56,613 bases of DNA from positions 1-56,613 of the forward strand of contig JAHEMF010000012.1 in assembly GCA_024643795.1 (NCBI GenBank). The letters run 5' to 3'. Below the pieces are notes generated by a model that saw only the letters and a program-made list of their open reading frames with translations, was not told the DNA's origin and made no database searches. The first letter of the stretch is position 1. Each line of letters starts with the position of its first letter. This document shows positions 8,382-49,244 of this stretch, piece by piece. The position numbers were made by a program, and so were the translations under genes. This DNA is from Bacteroidota bacterium. GTDB taxonomy: Bacteria; Bacteroidota; Bacteroidia; AKYH767-A; OLB10.

Positions 8382-8990
8382 ATGTTAAGCATTATCCGGG
8401 TACTTGTGTTATTGATAATAGCATCTTGCCTCCAGTCGTGTATGCCCATGCTCATGCGAATTAAATTCGATGGGCGATCGATCAATAAAATTCAGACATC
8501 TAAATCATTGGGAAAGTATCTGCACAAGCATGAGGTCGAATATGATCACTTGTTCAGGATCAAAGAGGATTCTTTGTGGGATATGATAACTAAGCCACAC
8601 AAGCCGGGATGGCCGCCAAGTCTGAGGATCATGACCATCCAATGTTTTAATGATCATGACTCACTTGTTATGAAGTGGACAGTTTGTGAAGGATTCCTTG
8701 ATTCACTGAAGCTTTTTGATGTGTTCCCGCCGGCTTACAATGGTCCGTTTTTCCCTACCGATTTTTCCAAGGACCTCTCTAGGTATTTATGGAACAATAA
8801 TGAAATCAATAGGGATGAAATTGCGTATGCTGACCTTAATGTTATTATCTATTGGGCAAGATTCATGGGAAATCTAAACCGAGAGTCATTGCAAAAGGTT
8901 ATACAATACAAACACCAGTACCCGGATAAAAAAATAAATGTGATTCTGGTAGCACTCGACAGAGATAAAAACTGGAAGAGTAAATTTTAA
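8382..8990 (+). CDS. Lipoprotein with degenerate thioredoxin-like C-terminus
   Basis: 202 residues. A lipoprotein signal with possible lipobox cysteines at 16 and 20 (LQSC) is followed by a region I do not recognise. Residues 150-198 look like the start of a TlpA/thioredoxin domain: a beta strand DLNVIIYW, then ARFMGNLNRESL where TlpA proteins have A-x-W-C-G-x-C-R-x-E, a helix, and a second strand NVILVALDRDKNW. Both catalytic cysteines are replaced (Met162, Leu165), and the chain stops after the second strand, so it cannot be an ordinary disulfide reductase. Sits 3 nt after its upstream neighbour and 17 nt before the next gene. Fold assignment is inference by eye. Confidence 0.75.
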   Translation: MLSIIRVLVLLIIASCLQSCMPMLMRIKFDGRSINKIQTSKSLGKYLHKHEVEYDHLFRIKEDSLWDMITKPHKPGWPPSLRIMTIQCFNDHDSLVMKWTVCEGFLDSLKLFDVFPPAYNGPFFPTDFSKDLSRYLWNNNEINRDEIAYADLNVIIYWARFMGNLNRESLQKVIQYKHQYPDKKINVILVALDRDKNWKSKF

Positions 8991-10379: not shown

Positions 10380-13300
10380 TTAACGGATAAGGGTAACTGT
10401 TCCTGTCTTGATCCCGGAGCCCTGATCATTCAGCACTTTGAGTTGGTAAACATAAACTCCTTCGGGTGCTGGATTTCCACTAGCAGTGTTACCATCCCAC
10501 AAACTTAATGCAGCTGCAGAATTAAAGACCTGCTGTCCCCAGCGGTTATAAATCACAAGATCATATGCTGATACAGAATAGCCGACGGGTCCAAAATAAT
10601 CGTTGTGTCCATCATTGTTTGGAGTAAATGAATTTGGAATGTAATAAATAACAACATTTTCAACATTAACTAAGGTTGATGATGAATCAACACATCCTTT
10701 ATCACTTGTTACAATAAGTCCAACTTCAAATAGTCCGGGCTCAAGATAAGTATGCGTTGGATTTTGATCAAAGGATGATTCGCCGTCTCCAAAACTCCAC
10801 AACCATGAGAATGAATGAGTAGATTGATCTACAAAATCGAAAAATGGATTTAAAATCGTTGCAGATGGAGGAACAACACTGAATATCACATCCGGTAAAG
10901 GATTAACTGTAACAGTATGGGCTACCATTTGTGTTGTTGAACATGAGTCATTTACAGTTAATACATATGTTGTGGTTGAGTCAGGAGATAGAGTGTGAGA
11001 TGACACAGGCGGCAATGAATTGTTCCATGAATAATAATAGGGACCTCCGTTTCCGCCTGTTGCATTTCCTGTTAGTACAAATGACATGCCTTCACAGATT
11101 TCGCTTACTGAAACTATTTCTGGTTGTAATGCAGGGTAGCGGTCAATAATCAATATATTAGATACAGCAGGGTTGAACAATAAACACTGCTCGGTAGATG
11201 TCATTTGTAATGATAATGTATCGCCATCTAGAAACGTTGAGCTGATAAGAGTGTCATTATTTGATCCTATGGGTACGCTGTTTAAGAACCACTGGTATGA
11301 GGGGTTAGCCCCGCCATTTATTGTTGCGGCTGAGTATGTAATACTTGTGCCATCACAAAAGATTCCCGGAGGGTTGGCACTGATAGTAGTGGTAGGTGTG
11401 AGTAAAGGCTTGATCTGTGCAACCACCAGGTTCGAAGTGTCAGTTACAGGCAGTGCGCAAAATGCGGATGAGGTAAGCACAGCAGTGATTATATCTCCGT
11501 TAGAGAATGAGTTTCCTGAAAACATTTGACCTGTAGATCCTGTGTTGATTCCGTTGACAAACCATTCTATGTTTGGTAAACTTCCACCTGCCTGAAGTGA
11601 TGAAGTAAAAAATAGAGAATCGCCATCACAAACGCTGCCCTGAGGTAATAAACTGATGGTAATATCCGGAGTAACATTTGGTGATATTTGAATGTTGATC
11701 TGATTTGAAAATACTACCGCTGAGGTTACACACTGTTCGCTGCTTGTGAGTTTGAGCCAGATCAAGTCACCGTTAACTAATGATGAGGATGTGAATATTG
11801 GAGTATTGCCCCCGACCGTAGTTCCATTTAATTTCCATTCATATAATGGATTTGTCCCTTCATTGGCTACAGTTGAATTGATTGTGATTAATGTGCCAGG
11901 GCAGTAGGGTCCTGGTGGATTTGCTGCAATAGATACGGTAGGTGTAAGGTTGGGATTAACATCTGTAATAATAATATTAGAACTGTCAGTAGCAATGGCA
12001 AGGCATTGTTCTGAAGAAGTGATTACCACCTGAACAGTATCGCCATCATTCAGTGTAGCAGTATAAGATGCTGAATTGCTGCCCGTAGAATTGCCATTCA
12101 GCAACCATTGATATCCGGGAGTTGTTCCAATATTGGTTCCGCTTGCTGTAAAAGTTAGTGGATCTCCATCACATACAGGGCCTGCAGGAAAAACATTTAT
12201 TGTTGCCTGCGGCGTCAATAAGGGTTTAACAACCATTATAATTTCATTCGAAATTGCCGTGGCTGGCGACACACATGTTGCATTGCTTGTGAGTACAACT
12301 CTTACAACGTCTCCATTTGCTAATGTAGTAGAACTGAATGTATTCCCTGATCCTGACACTACTCCGTTCACTTGCCATTGATATATTGGTGCACTACCAC
12401 CATTTACGGAAAGTGCTGTGAAAGTAACATTGTCGCCAATGCAAATAGGTCCGGTTGGTAGCGCTGTAATACTAACCGCCGGTACCGGTATGGGTATAAG
12501 ATTTAGTGAAATAACATTCGACAACACAGTTGGTGGTACTGGGCACGAAGCTGATGATATCATCCGAAGTCTTACAAAATCACCATTTACAAGTGATGAA
12601 GTAGTGAAGGTTGGTGAGTTGGGTCCGGTTACAGTGCCGTTTACCAGCCATTCATATACAGGGTTGGCCCCACCAAAGGTGGAGTTTGCGGTGAATGTAA
12701 GAGGTGTGCCCTCACAAACAGGCAGGTTTGGTGCAACTGATATGGCTACTGTCGGATTTACTGTGTTCAGAACAGTCATTACAGCTACATTGGATATACT
12801 GTTGATTGGTGAAACGCAAACTCCATTGGAAGTCATGGTCACTCTAACGGCATCCCCATTGGTAATAGTGCTGGTTGTATAGGTATTTGAATTTGTGCCG
12901 ACATTTCCACCGTTCAATTGCCATTGGAATGATGGTGTTGTACCACCATTGATTGGATTCGCTGTGAACGTTACCAGAGTACCCGGACAAATAGCACCTG
13001 CAGGATTTACAGAAATACTTACAGCTCCGTTGAGTGTTGGATTCACAGTCATTATAATAACATTGCTGGTGGCTGTTGCCGGAGCAGCGCAAGTAAGTGA
13101 TGATGTCAGAATTACCCTTACCTGATCCCCATTATTAAGGGCTGCCGTTGCAAATGACGGACTATTGGGGCCTGTATTGATGCCATTTATTTGCCATTGA
13201 TAAGTAGGTGCTGAGCCACCTAATATCGGGGTTGCAGTAAAGATCACATTGTCGTCTTTACAGATAGGTCCGCTAGGGTTTACATTTATTGTAACTGAAG

Positions 13301-15398
13301 GTGCTGAAGGTGCTGTTACCGTTATGGTAATGGTGTTTGAATTGGCTGTAGGTGTTGAAACACATGTCTCACTGGAAGTGAGAATTACAATCACAACATC
13401 ACCATTGTTCAAAGTACTTGAAGTGAAGGTGTTGCTGTTTGCACCTGCATTGACTCCATTTACCTGCCACTGATATGTCGGAGCAGCGCCTCCATTTGTA
13501 GGCCAGGCTGTGAATGTAACTGCTTGACCACTACAAATGGCCCCTGAATTATTTGATGTGATAGTCACTGAAGGTGTAACAACAGGACTAACATTCATAT
13601 TTATAACGTTTGATGTTGCTGCAGGGCATGCTGCACTTGCGGTTAATGACACACCAACCTGGCTTCCTGCTGTTAATGATGATGATGAATATGATGTACT
13701 GTTCGCTCCTACGTTAGCACCATTTACTATCCATTGATATACAGGTGTTGGTCCTGGATTAACAGGTACTGCCGTAAAAGTTACAGATGTGCCAAAACAT
13801 ATGGATCCGGCAGGTGCAGCAGAAATACTTACCTCAGGTGCCAATGTTGGATTAACATTTACTACCACAGGCGGTGAAAAAGCGGTGTTTGTTGTTACAC
13901 AAGCTGAATTTGATGTTAGTGAAACGGTGATAATGTCACCATCATTTAGTGTAGAAGAGGTATAGGTTGGACTATTGGTTCCAATATTAACACCATTCAG
14001 TTGCCACTGGAAGGCCGGAGAGGTTCCGCCAAATGTTGGCAATGCAGTGAAGGTCACCTGTGTGCCTGAACAGATCGGGTTAGGAGGATCTTGCATAATT
14101 GTAACTGCAGGTTGAGGCGTGCCTACAAACGGAGTTACAGTTATGCTATATATAATGTTGGTAGTCTTTGGCGGACAACCGTTATCGGTGCCTGAAACAT
14201 TAAATTGGTAGGGTGCAGAATTAGCTTGTCCGCAATCAGTGCTCCAACAGAACTGAGCATATGCTATGTTATCATCAGCTACAGGTGAAAGAGTTGCGGG
14301 AGGATTAACAATGGCTGGATTAAAAATATTTCCTGTGGCGCTAACGTACAAGCTGTCGCCGTTAGGATCGGTCATTATAACTGGAAAGCATAATGTTTGT
14401 CCTTCTGTTATGGTATAATTTAATATGCCGCTACCATTAGATGTTGAAAGTACAGGTGGATTGTTGGGAGGGCATGCTATTGCTATCAACTGTAGGTCTC
14501 GTCGGATTGTGGATATAAGTACTCCATTTCTGTATTCTTTTATCTCAATTGCTACAACATAAAATCCCTGATTTGGAATGCTGTATTGAGTGAGTCCGGT
14601 TTGTGAGTTGATATTAGCGTATCCACCTGCCCCAAAAGGCGATGGCATATTATAACCTGGGTTGTAAAGTACGCCCGGGATAGGCCATATGTATGGATTG
14701 TTGTCAACAAAAGGATCGGGTATCGGATTGCCGGTTCCAGAGTATCCGCTATATGGGATCTCAAATGAATAAACTAGTGAATCGCCATCCGGATCATATG
14801 CATTGTTCACAATTGATACAGTATCGTTAGTGCACATATACGGAACAGGTATATCACTGAACTGAGGTGAAGAATTTATGGTTCCTGCCGGCGGAATAAA
14901 ACAATAATAGGTTTGTCCCACACCTCCCGGATTATTAAGGTTTGCAATGTTGCCATTTCTGCAGCATCTTTCAACCATTATATGGTAGCCTCCTGTTGAG
15001 GGAGGTAGAGAAATGTCAGCTTCAAAAATACCTTCCTGTACACATACCGTCGTTGAAAAGTTGCAAGTGGGTCCTACAGAAGGCGGGTTGATAAATGTGC
15101 TGCTGGTAAGCAACAGGTCTTCAGTGGCAAACCAATTCTTGTCATCATTTGGGAAATTGATATCTTGCTCATAGATCCCCAAAAACATGGAATTATCTAG
15201 TGGGGCGGTTCCTCCGGCTGACGCATCACAATACCTGTATATCTTTAGGGTAATATGGTAATTATCGTTGCCTCCTGAACTGCCGGTATATTCATAGGTC
15301 ATGCTTCCACCCATCAGGTGAGTAGCATGAAGCTCAAATAGTGAGCAAAGAGCAAAAATTAAAAACAGGAGTGTTCTCCTGTAAATACCTATTGGCAT
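10380..15398 (-). CDS. Giant Ig-repeat adhesin-like protein with T9SS C-terminal domain
   Basis: 1672 residues. A signal peptide (to about residue 25) is followed by a roughly 390-residue N-terminal region (starting ATHLMGGSMTYEY) common in Bacteroidota surface proteins. Residues about 420-1420 are 11 tandem Ig-like repeats of about 91 residues, each with an N-terminal ICxG cysteine, a YQWQ/FQWQ motif, NG.xxGxNS, LxNGD and a second cysteine in SSxxC. A degenerate twelfth unit, a PKD domain (WLWSFGDGESS, THTY near 1530) and a CHU_C/gliding-motility C-terminal domain (IPNSFTPNNDGHND ... YNRWGQQVF ... GVYVYQLKV) complete it. The C-terminal domain marks export by the type IX system and surface attachment or release. 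Monocistronic; ligand unknown. Confidence 0.93.
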   Translation of the reverse strand: MPIGIYRRTLLFLIFALCSLFELHATHLMGGSMTYEYTGSSGGNDNYHITLKIYRYCDASAGGTAPLDNSMFLGIYEQDINFPNDDKNWFATEDLLLTSSTFINPPSVGPTCNFSTTVCVQEGIFEADISLPPSTGGYHIMVERCCRNGNIANLNNPGGVGQTYYCFIPPAGTINSSPQFSDIPVPYMCTNDTVSIVNNAYDPDGDSLVYSFEIPYSGYSGTGNPIPDPFVDNNPYIWPIPGVLYNPGYNMPSPFGAGGYANINSQTGLTQYSIPNQGFYVVAIEIKEYRNGVLISTIRRDLQLIAIACPPNNPPVLSTSNGSGILNYTITEGQTLCFPVIMTDPNGDSLYVSATGNIFNPAIVNPPATLSPVADDNIAYAQFCWSTDCGQANSAPYQFNVSGTDNGCPPKTTNIIYSITVTPFVGTPQPAVTIMQDPPNPICSGTQVTFTALPTFGGTSPAFQWQLNGVNIGTNSPTYTSSTLNDGDIITVSLTSNSACVTTNTAFSPPVVVNVNPTLAPEVSISAAPAGSICFGTSVTFTAVPVNPGPTPVYQWIVNGANVGANSTSYSSSSLTAGSQVGVSLTASAACPAATSNVINMNVSPVVTPSVTITSNNSGAICSGQAVTFTAWPTNGGAAPTYQWQVNGVNAGANSNTFTSSTLNNGDVVIVILTSSETCVSTPTANSNTITITVTAPSAPSVTINVNPSGPICKDDNVIFTATPILGGSAPTYQWQINGINTGPNSPSFATAALNNGDQVRVILTSSLTCAAPATATSNVIIMTVNPTLNGAVSISVNPAGAICPGTLVTFTANPINGGTTPSFQWQLNGGNVGTNSNTYTTSTITNGDAVRVTMTSNGVCVSPINSISNVAVMTVLNTVNPTVAISVAPNLPVCEGTPLTFTANSTFGGANPVYEWLVNGTVTGPNSPTFTTSSLVNGDFVRLRMISSASCPVPPTVLSNVISLNLIPIPVPAVSITALPTGPICIGDNVTFTALSVNGGSAPIYQWQVNGVVSGSGNTFSSTTLANGDVVRVVLTSNATCVSPATAISNEIIMVVKPLLTPQATINVFPAGPVCDGDPLTFTASGTNIGTTPGYQWLLNGNSTGSNSASYTATLNDGDTVQVVITSSEQCLAIATDSSNIIITDVNPNLTPTVSIAANPPGPYCPGTLITINSTVANEGTNPLYEWKLNGTTVGGNTPIFTSSSLVNGDLIWLKLTSSEQCVTSAVVFSNQINIQISPNVTPDITISLLPQGSVCDGDSLFFTSSLQAGGSLPNIEWFVNGINTGSTGQMFSGNSFSNGDIITAVLTSSAFCALPVTDTSNLVVAQIKPLLTPTTTISANPPGIFCDGTSITYSAATINGGANPSYQWFLNSVPIGSNNDTLISSTFLDGDTLSLQMTSTEQCLLFNPAVSNILIIDRYPALQPEIVSVSEICEGMSFVLTGNATGGNGGPYYYSWNNSLPPVSSHTLSPDSTTTYVLTVNDSCSTTQMVAHTVTVNPLPDVIFSVVPPSATILNPFFDFVDQSTHSFSWLWSFGDGESSFDQNPTHTYLEPGLFEVGLIVTSDKGCVDSSSTLVNVENVVIYYIPNSFTPNNDGHNDYFGPVGYSVSAYDLVIYNRWGQQVFNSAAALSLWDGNTASGNPAPEGVYVYQLKVLNDQGSGIKTGTVTLIR
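11142..14140 (-). repeat. Eleven tandem Ig-like coding repeats (about 273 bp each)
   Basis: In-frame repeats inside the adhesin gene. The units share protein motifs but have drifted at DNA level, so they look like old duplications rather than a recently expanded array. Their regular composition also produces several long spurious open frames on the plus strand. Confidence 0.85.
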
Positions 15399-19612: not shown

Positions 19613-19916
19613 TATTTTTCGGTTTGTTTAAACGTTGCCTCATTGATATAAGGGCAAGAATGAGGTCCAGTATCTTTTACCCCGTAGGAAAGCTGCATCT
19701 GGCAACACTTTCAAAAATATATATTTTCTGTAGAATTTACGTTCCCTAAACAGTCATTGACGCATATCTCTATTTCTGGTAATTTTATAGTGGGGAGGGG
19801 ATAGGCATCTTCCCCCACCAAAGCCCTGCCTACTGTGCATGAAAAATTTCGCATTTAAAGTGACTGTGATCATTCAACAGAACAACTGAAATGAAAACGA
19901 TTCAGGCCCTGCGCCA
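19613..19916. other. Non-coding stretch, nothing firmly identified
   Basis: A 304-bp AT-rich stretch after the DUF1801 gene. I see only a 6-bp inverted repeat GTGGGG (19790-19795) / CCCCAC (19813-19818) without a T tract, and two very short frames (from 19838 and 19891) with no support. It leads into the repeat element at 19917. Confidence 0.6.
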
Positions 19917-19971
19917 TAGCCCCGATTGAACTGAGCTCCTGCGAGGTGAAAGCGGGACAGCACTTGCCACA
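19917..19971 (+). repeat. Intergenic palindromic repeat, copy A
   Basis: One of three copies in the window of a roughly 55-nt element: TAGCCCCGATTGA ... CTGAGCTCCTGCGA ... GAAAGCGGGAC, then a looser TTGCCACA end. The ends can pair (CCCG with CGGG) around an inner CTC/GAG hairpin, like a REP-type unit. This copy differs from each of the others at two positions in the 42-nt core. It sits between the 3' ends of DUF1801 (plus) and the small gene at 20011 (minus). Confidence 0.8.
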
Positions 19972-20010
19972 GCGTACTGCTGCACTTGCTTTAAAATATC
20001 AGGAAGGAAA

Positions 20011-37368: not shown

Positions 37369-37403
37369 TATCTTCATTTTTTTAAGCGCGGGGTACGGTG
37401 TCA

Positions 37404-37458
37404 TTTGGCAACTGCGGTCCCGCTTTCGCCTCGCAGGAGCTCAGCTCAATCGGGGCTA
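37404..37458 (-). repeat. Intergenic palindromic repeat, copy B
   Basis: Reverse-strand copy of the element at 19917: read on the minus strand it has TAGCCCCGATTGA, CTGAGCTCCTGCGA and GAAAGCGGGACC, ending TTGCCAAA. Two core differences from each other copy. It lies between the convergent stops of the 36508 gene and the sulfatase gene. Confidence 0.8.
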
Positions 37459-37500
37459 AGGCTAGTGGCGGATGTTTTCATAGCAACAAAAAGTTAAAAA

Positions 37501-49086: not shown

Positions 49087-49123
49087 ATATGCATGATAGC
49101 CAACCTGATGATATGCATGATAG
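49087..49123. promoter_or_regulatory. Direct repeat upstream of NSS transporter
   Basis: ATATGCATGATAG occurs at 49087-49099 and again at 49111-49123, period 24 bp. Each half contains the palindrome ATGCAT. It lies 99-135 bp upstream of the transporter start and could bind a regulator; no match to a known operator. Confidence 0.4.
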
Positions 49124-49149
49124 TTCAATATATATCCTGGCCAGCCAAA

Positions 49150-49205
49150 TAGCCCCGATTGAGCTGAGCTCCTGCGAAGTGAAAGCGGGACCAAACAATG
49201 CCACA
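49150..49205 (+). repeat. Intergenic palindromic repeat, copy C
   Basis: Third copy of the element: TAGCCCCGATTGA, CTGAGCTCCTGCGA, GAAAGCGGGACC, ending TGCCACA. It is just past the 3' end of the minus-strand OmpA gene and is oriented opposite to it. Confidence 0.8.
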
Positions 49206-49244
49206 AGGCACATTTGATCCCGCTTCCAATTAATTGGAATATAG

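Follow-up and report, generated by a model that had tools for sequence, protein, structure and literature searches.

Flavo-1 (Rfam RF01705) was predicted as a non-cis RNA of Bacteroidetes (Weinberg et al. 2010, PMC2864571) and counts, according to a review (PMC9029176), as one of the most abundant sRNA families. In the transcriptome of F. psychrophilum, matches to Flavo-1 were sense as well as antisense to transcribed regions, many were untranscribed, and no clue to a function was obtained (PMC9723704). Two kinds of mobile sequence are comparable. REP/REPIN elements and their RAYT transposases involve short, intergenic, multi-copy palindromes whose stems contain mismatches, and RAYT genes of the Bacteroidetes subclass 2.6 are flanked by atypical hairpins with copies elsewhere (PMC6006769). 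MITEs and IS200-derived PATE elements are non-autonomous, dispersed and hairpin-forming, with defined borders, as are the elements described below; terminal inverted repeats, target duplications and a parental IS were not found for Flavo-1.

The window, i.e., the whole stretch of DNA that was analysed, comprises 56 613 nt of a Bacteroidota genome. Three repeat cores of 40 nt each were located in it, with exactly two differences in every pairwise comparison, as a sequence-only reading had reported for a 42-nt core; the pattern AGCCCCGAT-N-AGCGGGA gave three matches in the window versus none in 100 shuffles. According to the same reading, the surroundings of the copies are unrelated. The flanks do look dissimilar, but the covariance-model match spans about 80 nt per copy (19915–19996, 37381–37460, and 49148–49228), and a GCTYN motif 30–31 nt past each core had been overlooked. 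The E values of these matches (1e-16 to 3e-19, filters off) show extent only, because the training set of the model included these copies. The parts of the copies are collated below; the putative 5′ arms were delimited by carrying over the borders of a 146-bp repeat in genome G003 and of the conservation profile.

19886..19917, plus strand: putative 5′ arm of copy 1, 32 nt ahead of AGCCCC, including ATGAAAACGA, last base T
19918..19957, plus strand: hairpin core of copy 1 (pattern search, fold, covariance model)
19958..19987, plus strand: 3′ spacer of copy 1, 30 nt
19988..19992, plus strand: end motif of copy 1 (GCTYC type), reading GCTTT and running into A-rich DNA
37458..37489, minus strand: putative 5′ arm of copy 2, by analogy
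37418..37457, minus strand: hairpin core of copy 2 (pattern search, covariance model)
37388..37417, minus strand: 3′ spacer of copy 2, 30 nt
37383..37387, minus strand: end motif of copy 2, reading GCTTA and running into AAAAAA
37499..37527, minus strand: hairpin of the sulfatase gene resembling a terminator, with a T tail; distinct from copy 2 and upstream of it
49119..49150, plus strand: putative 5′ arm of copy 3, by analogy
49151..49190, plus strand: hairpin core of copy 3 (pattern search, covariance model)
49191..49221, plus strand: 3′ spacer of copy 3, 31 nt
49222..49226, plus strand: GCTTC, end motif of copy 3

The differences among the window copies keep the pairs, which was a check proposed earlier: by sequence and predicted fold, one inner pair reads A-U, G-C, and G-U in copies 1, 2, and 3, respectively, and another reads U-G, U-G, and U-A. 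The outer pairing originally suggested, GCCCCG with CGGGAC, contains a C-A mismatch; the stem backed by covariation is CCCG/CGGG. Copy 1 is situated 305 nt past a DUF1801 gene, copy 2 has convergent genes on either side, and copy 3 lies antisense to an OmpA-domain gene, beside its 3′ end. The description of the copies as sitting just past gene 3′ ends therefore applies loosely in the window, but not family-wide. Elsewhere in the window, 10380–15398 on the minus strand encodes a protein of 1672 aa that contains Ig-like and PKD domains and, in addition, a CHU_C type IX secretion signal.

No match in the window was returned by Rfam at the gathering threshold, which is 42 bits for RF01705. Throughout the own genome, the pattern was matched 10 times (reversed control: 0), and a covariance model trained on 28 relatives recovered the same 10 along with two weak candidates, so that the further genomic copies anticipated by the earlier reading do exist. 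With an E-value cut used instead of the gathering threshold, seven of the own-genome copies outside the window matched RF01705 over model positions 1–76 with 28.5–35.3 bits (E 0.0003–0.02); these scores fall below 42 bits because the inner stem is much shorter, and relatives with longer stems scored 80–85 bits. The elements show the Flavo-1 consensus with its paired positions (CCYG/CY′GG, A.G, T-A, X-X′, G.A), and have in common with it the TAGCCCCGAT...AGCGGGA frame, the mismatched positions, and an intergenic location in Bacteroidetes (Bacteroidota). They differ from it in the length of the window core (about 40 nt versus about 57–76), in scores under the gathering threshold, and in the GCTYC motif some 30 nt downstream, which is outside the Rfam model; moreover, Flavo-1 was described as an RNA, whereas the window copies are argued here to be a DNA element. 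By sequence and fold, the own-genome set consists of diverged, short-stem Flavo-1 relatives and not of annotated members. The earlier reading was right about the repeat, the palindrome, and the likeness to elements in other Bacteroidota; those elements are Flavo-1.

The anatomy of the family was determined from 166 elements that had been gathered without any pairing requirement. Positions Y and Y′ (AGCCC[Y]GAT/AGC[Y′]GGA) formed Watson–Crick pairs in 163 of the 166 (CG 123, TA 33, AT 4, GC 3), as did X and X′ in 153 (AT 63, TA 48, GC 33, CG 9). In an independent count on a 28-sequence alignment, covariation scored 0.378; shuffles reached 0.083, and slid structures no more than 0.041. The spacing between hairpin and GCTYC was bimodal in the set of 166 (3–5 nt in 82 elements, 26–32 nt in 61), the conservation profile extended from about 30 nt upstream of the hairpin to GCTYCTAAAAA, and the foot of the element read NNT|AGCCC in nearly all copies. 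Covariation through all four pairs, the GCTYC motif with its A-rich tail, and the 5′ arm of about 30 nt are additions to the Rfam description. Base pairing between the 5′ arm and the spacer was not in excess. The family strand, i.e., the one with the purine–purine mismatches, out-folded its complement in 138 of 164 cases; the flanking DNA control gave 105 to 59, and the preference is thus partly present in flanking DNA too. Genome G180 (L045, L058) carries a variant in which ordinary pairs take the place of the G.A mismatch, giving a full hairpin with the outer frame and the GCTCC end kept.

Among the 24 genomes of the own family, strong copies were confined to the window genome; long-stem versions were present in G003 and G016, which belong to one other genus. 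The strict pattern was matched in 23 of the 395 genomes of the class sample, a few of them clearly by chance. Genus g80 was rich in Flavo-1, and from this richness we take it to be Flavobacterium: Flavo-1 was found in 76 of its 81 genomes, often in at least 50 copies, and in none of the remaining five. Copy numbers reached 97 in G491 (a complete genome), 64 in G462, and 33 in G471. Certain loci carry an element in distant species, namely the aroC 3′ end, serC–serA, argH, purM, and odhB; this sharing may point to a role for the host and counts against the mobile-element reading. Close behind the aroC stop codon, an element was present in 12 of 30 genomes, with a single orientation, antisense, throughout. 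Of the 12, two were recognised by eye; for the ten whose boundaries are exact, the distance was 7–17 nt. The Y-Y′ pair of the aroC elements was G-C, T-A, C-G, or A-T, and two grouped species (support 80/95) differed by C-G versus A-T. Either in-place selection on the fold or replacement by other copies would produce this pattern.

One recent duplication was found in G003, where a 146-bp block (97.9% identical) occurs at two unrelated loci. The block starts 32 nt before AGCCC and ends about 12 nt after GCTCC, in agreement with the borders derived from conservation; otherwise, the flanks of the two loci share only a separate 64-bp side repeat. One of these copies is located at the end of radA (L320 1583–2959) and supplies its last codons: the protein ends EEVFFFVWSASVFM, with residues FFVWSASVFM read from Flavo-1, whereas homologues end EEVF.LLFG. 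This case is the best evidence for insertion, as deduced from homologues (from named genomes, at most 67% identical, none in the own family) rather than from an aligned empty site. Inspection of the copy borders by eye revealed neither terminal inverted repeats nor a target-site duplication. For the empty-site comparison, the three complete genomes were too diverged (75–82%), and the nearest relative of G491 in the sample was at 76%, with none close. A target-site duplication was also sought as likeness between the 5′ and 3′ arms. The mean fixed-register score of 7.21 exceeded that of shuffles between loci (5.98, 0/500), but the within-genome comparison gave 6.14 versus 6.19; the likeness was lost on within-genome shuffling, and the arms are therefore lineage-specific and not locus-specific. 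Eight G462 elements gave a marginal signal in this test (48/1000).

Further placements were recorded in copy-rich genomes. Among 71 listed positions of the 97 in G491, none fell in the roughly 370 kb around dnaA, a pattern that was not seen in G462. Pairs about 6 kb apart recur in G462 and were considered as a possible 6-kb transposon; the single case examined turned out to be an rRNA operon flanked by Flavo-1 copies (L209 2547–2625, minus strand, and 8635–8714, plus strand), one just past the 5S gene and the other, in opposite orientation, about 0.7 kb upstream of the 16S gene. An origin from phages or plasmids was rejected, the BLAST matches being T-rich noise; exact Flavo-1 patterns are carried by four IMG/VR viral contigs (L251–L254) out of 2.9 million.

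The window sequences are diverged, short-stem Flavo-1 copies, and we consider it fairly probable that the family is a non-autonomous, dispersed DNA element, moved by an enzyme and then often retained at its locus. The unit would comprise about 110–150 nt: a 5′ arm of about 30 nt with T as its last base; the hairpin, of the form AGCCC[Y]GAT[X]..[X′]AGC[Y′]GGA, whose inner stem varies; 3–5 or 26–32 nt of spacer; and GCTYC with an A-rich tail. A putative enzyme would recognise the folded strand with its G.A mismatches and insert copies mainly in intergenic DNA, and many insertions would then be long-lived at the same locus with the fold kept. Recognition of a folded single strand of such an element by an enzyme is the most economical account; the form acted on would be DNA and not RNA, and the copying would be enzymatic transposition. 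The search for a candidate mover yielded no enzyme, and the Y1 genes were without a link to Flavo-1.

This last result bears on the suggestion that the repeats are classical REP elements mobilised by a RAYT (TnpA-REP, possibly of the Bacteroidetes subclass 2.6), as the sequence-only reading had proposed. A REP-like dispersed element does fit: the copies are short, extragenic, palindromic, and repeated (10–12 in the own genome, up to 97 in G491). The RAYT link, however, failed in the Y1 gene and locus searches. The only Y1 gene detected in the own genome is IS200-like and cut by the contig end, and a RAYT gene flanked by the repeat was found neither there nor in the other genomes searched. Y1 searches were negative in four Flavo-1-rich genomes (G491, G449, G450, G463), whereas copy-free G494, G438, and G453 gave Y1 matches; of 20 Y1 loci, mostly weak RAYT-type matches, none had a Flavo-1 match within 1.5 kb, even with E values of up to 3 admitted. 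The subclass 2.6 hairpins are the best RAYT lead, their identity with Flavo-1 having been tested via these Y1 loci only. In favour of a RAYT, one Y1 gene in G116 (L088 1275–1938) is followed, after about 240 bp, by a Flavo-1 copy, the sole such pairing seen; the gene is flanked by imperfect inverted repeats resembling CGTTTAAACGG. Unlike REP/REPIN elements, Flavo-1 is without the GT[AG]G tetranucleotide at its foot, a REP hallmark, has conserved arms and a GCTYC end, and is mostly solitary; the exception to the missing BIME/REPIN pairs is an inverted pair about 0.9 kb apart on either side of truA in G450 (L130 1504–2568). RAYT mobilisation is thus strongly disfavoured, and we regard it as very unlikely.

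The other proposal of the sequence-only reading, a cis-acting RNA hairpin at the 3′ ends of mRNAs (for termination, stability, or processing), would agree with the position of the window copies near gene 3′ ends, with a hairpin that is predicted to fold as RNA, and with the covariation, which means that a single strand folds. Orientation was random to genes, however: 52 of the 119 elements with genes on both sides (simple long ORFs rather than curated calls) were sense to the left (upstream) gene (p 0.20), 20 of the 119 lay between divergent genes, polarity was never significant, and a smaller set agreed. In addition, copy 2 lies beyond the separate terminator-like hairpin of the sulfatase gene, the hairpin is followed by an A-rich tail and not by a U tract, and the two-sense, often untranscribed matches in F. 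psychrophilum also speak against such a signal, which we hold to be highly improbable. Just as improbable are trans-acting small RNA genes, even though Rfam lists Flavo-1 as an sRNA, the family ranks high in abundance, and the fold is conserved; genomes hold dozens to about 100 near-equivalent copies while sister species are copy-free, no fixed promoter-like sequence precedes the arm, and the F. psychrophilum transcriptome was negative. The remaining alternative, to which we give more weight but still consider unlikely, is a resident site in the chromosome at which a host protein for organisation, repair, or recombination binds DNA or ssDNA; the site would have been dispersed anciently and would now be under selection. 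The loci common to distant species with their compensatory pairs, the near absence of Flavo-1 from phages and plasmids, and the lack of polarity relative to genes or to replication (68 versus 82, p 0.29) favour it; against it, the five copy-free species of genus g80 are viable, a recent copy interrupts the radA end, and positions are only partly shared. As a whole, the earlier interpretation is partly supported.

Returning to the mobile DNA element, a more specific version is conceivable, although we hold it only tentatively and with some doubt: Flavo-1 might form a new class of non-autonomous mobile element with a two-armed folded single strand, a GCTYC-A(n) end, a non-Y1 enzyme, and insertion indifferent to gene direction. 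Movement via an RNA intermediate would be possible because the 3′ end is A-rich. If the mobile-element reading is true, Bacteroidota possess a dispersed repeat family whose mover can be hunted via its defined borders, and many sRNA annotations would be wrong, Flavo-1 being counted as one of the commonest sRNA families in bacteria.
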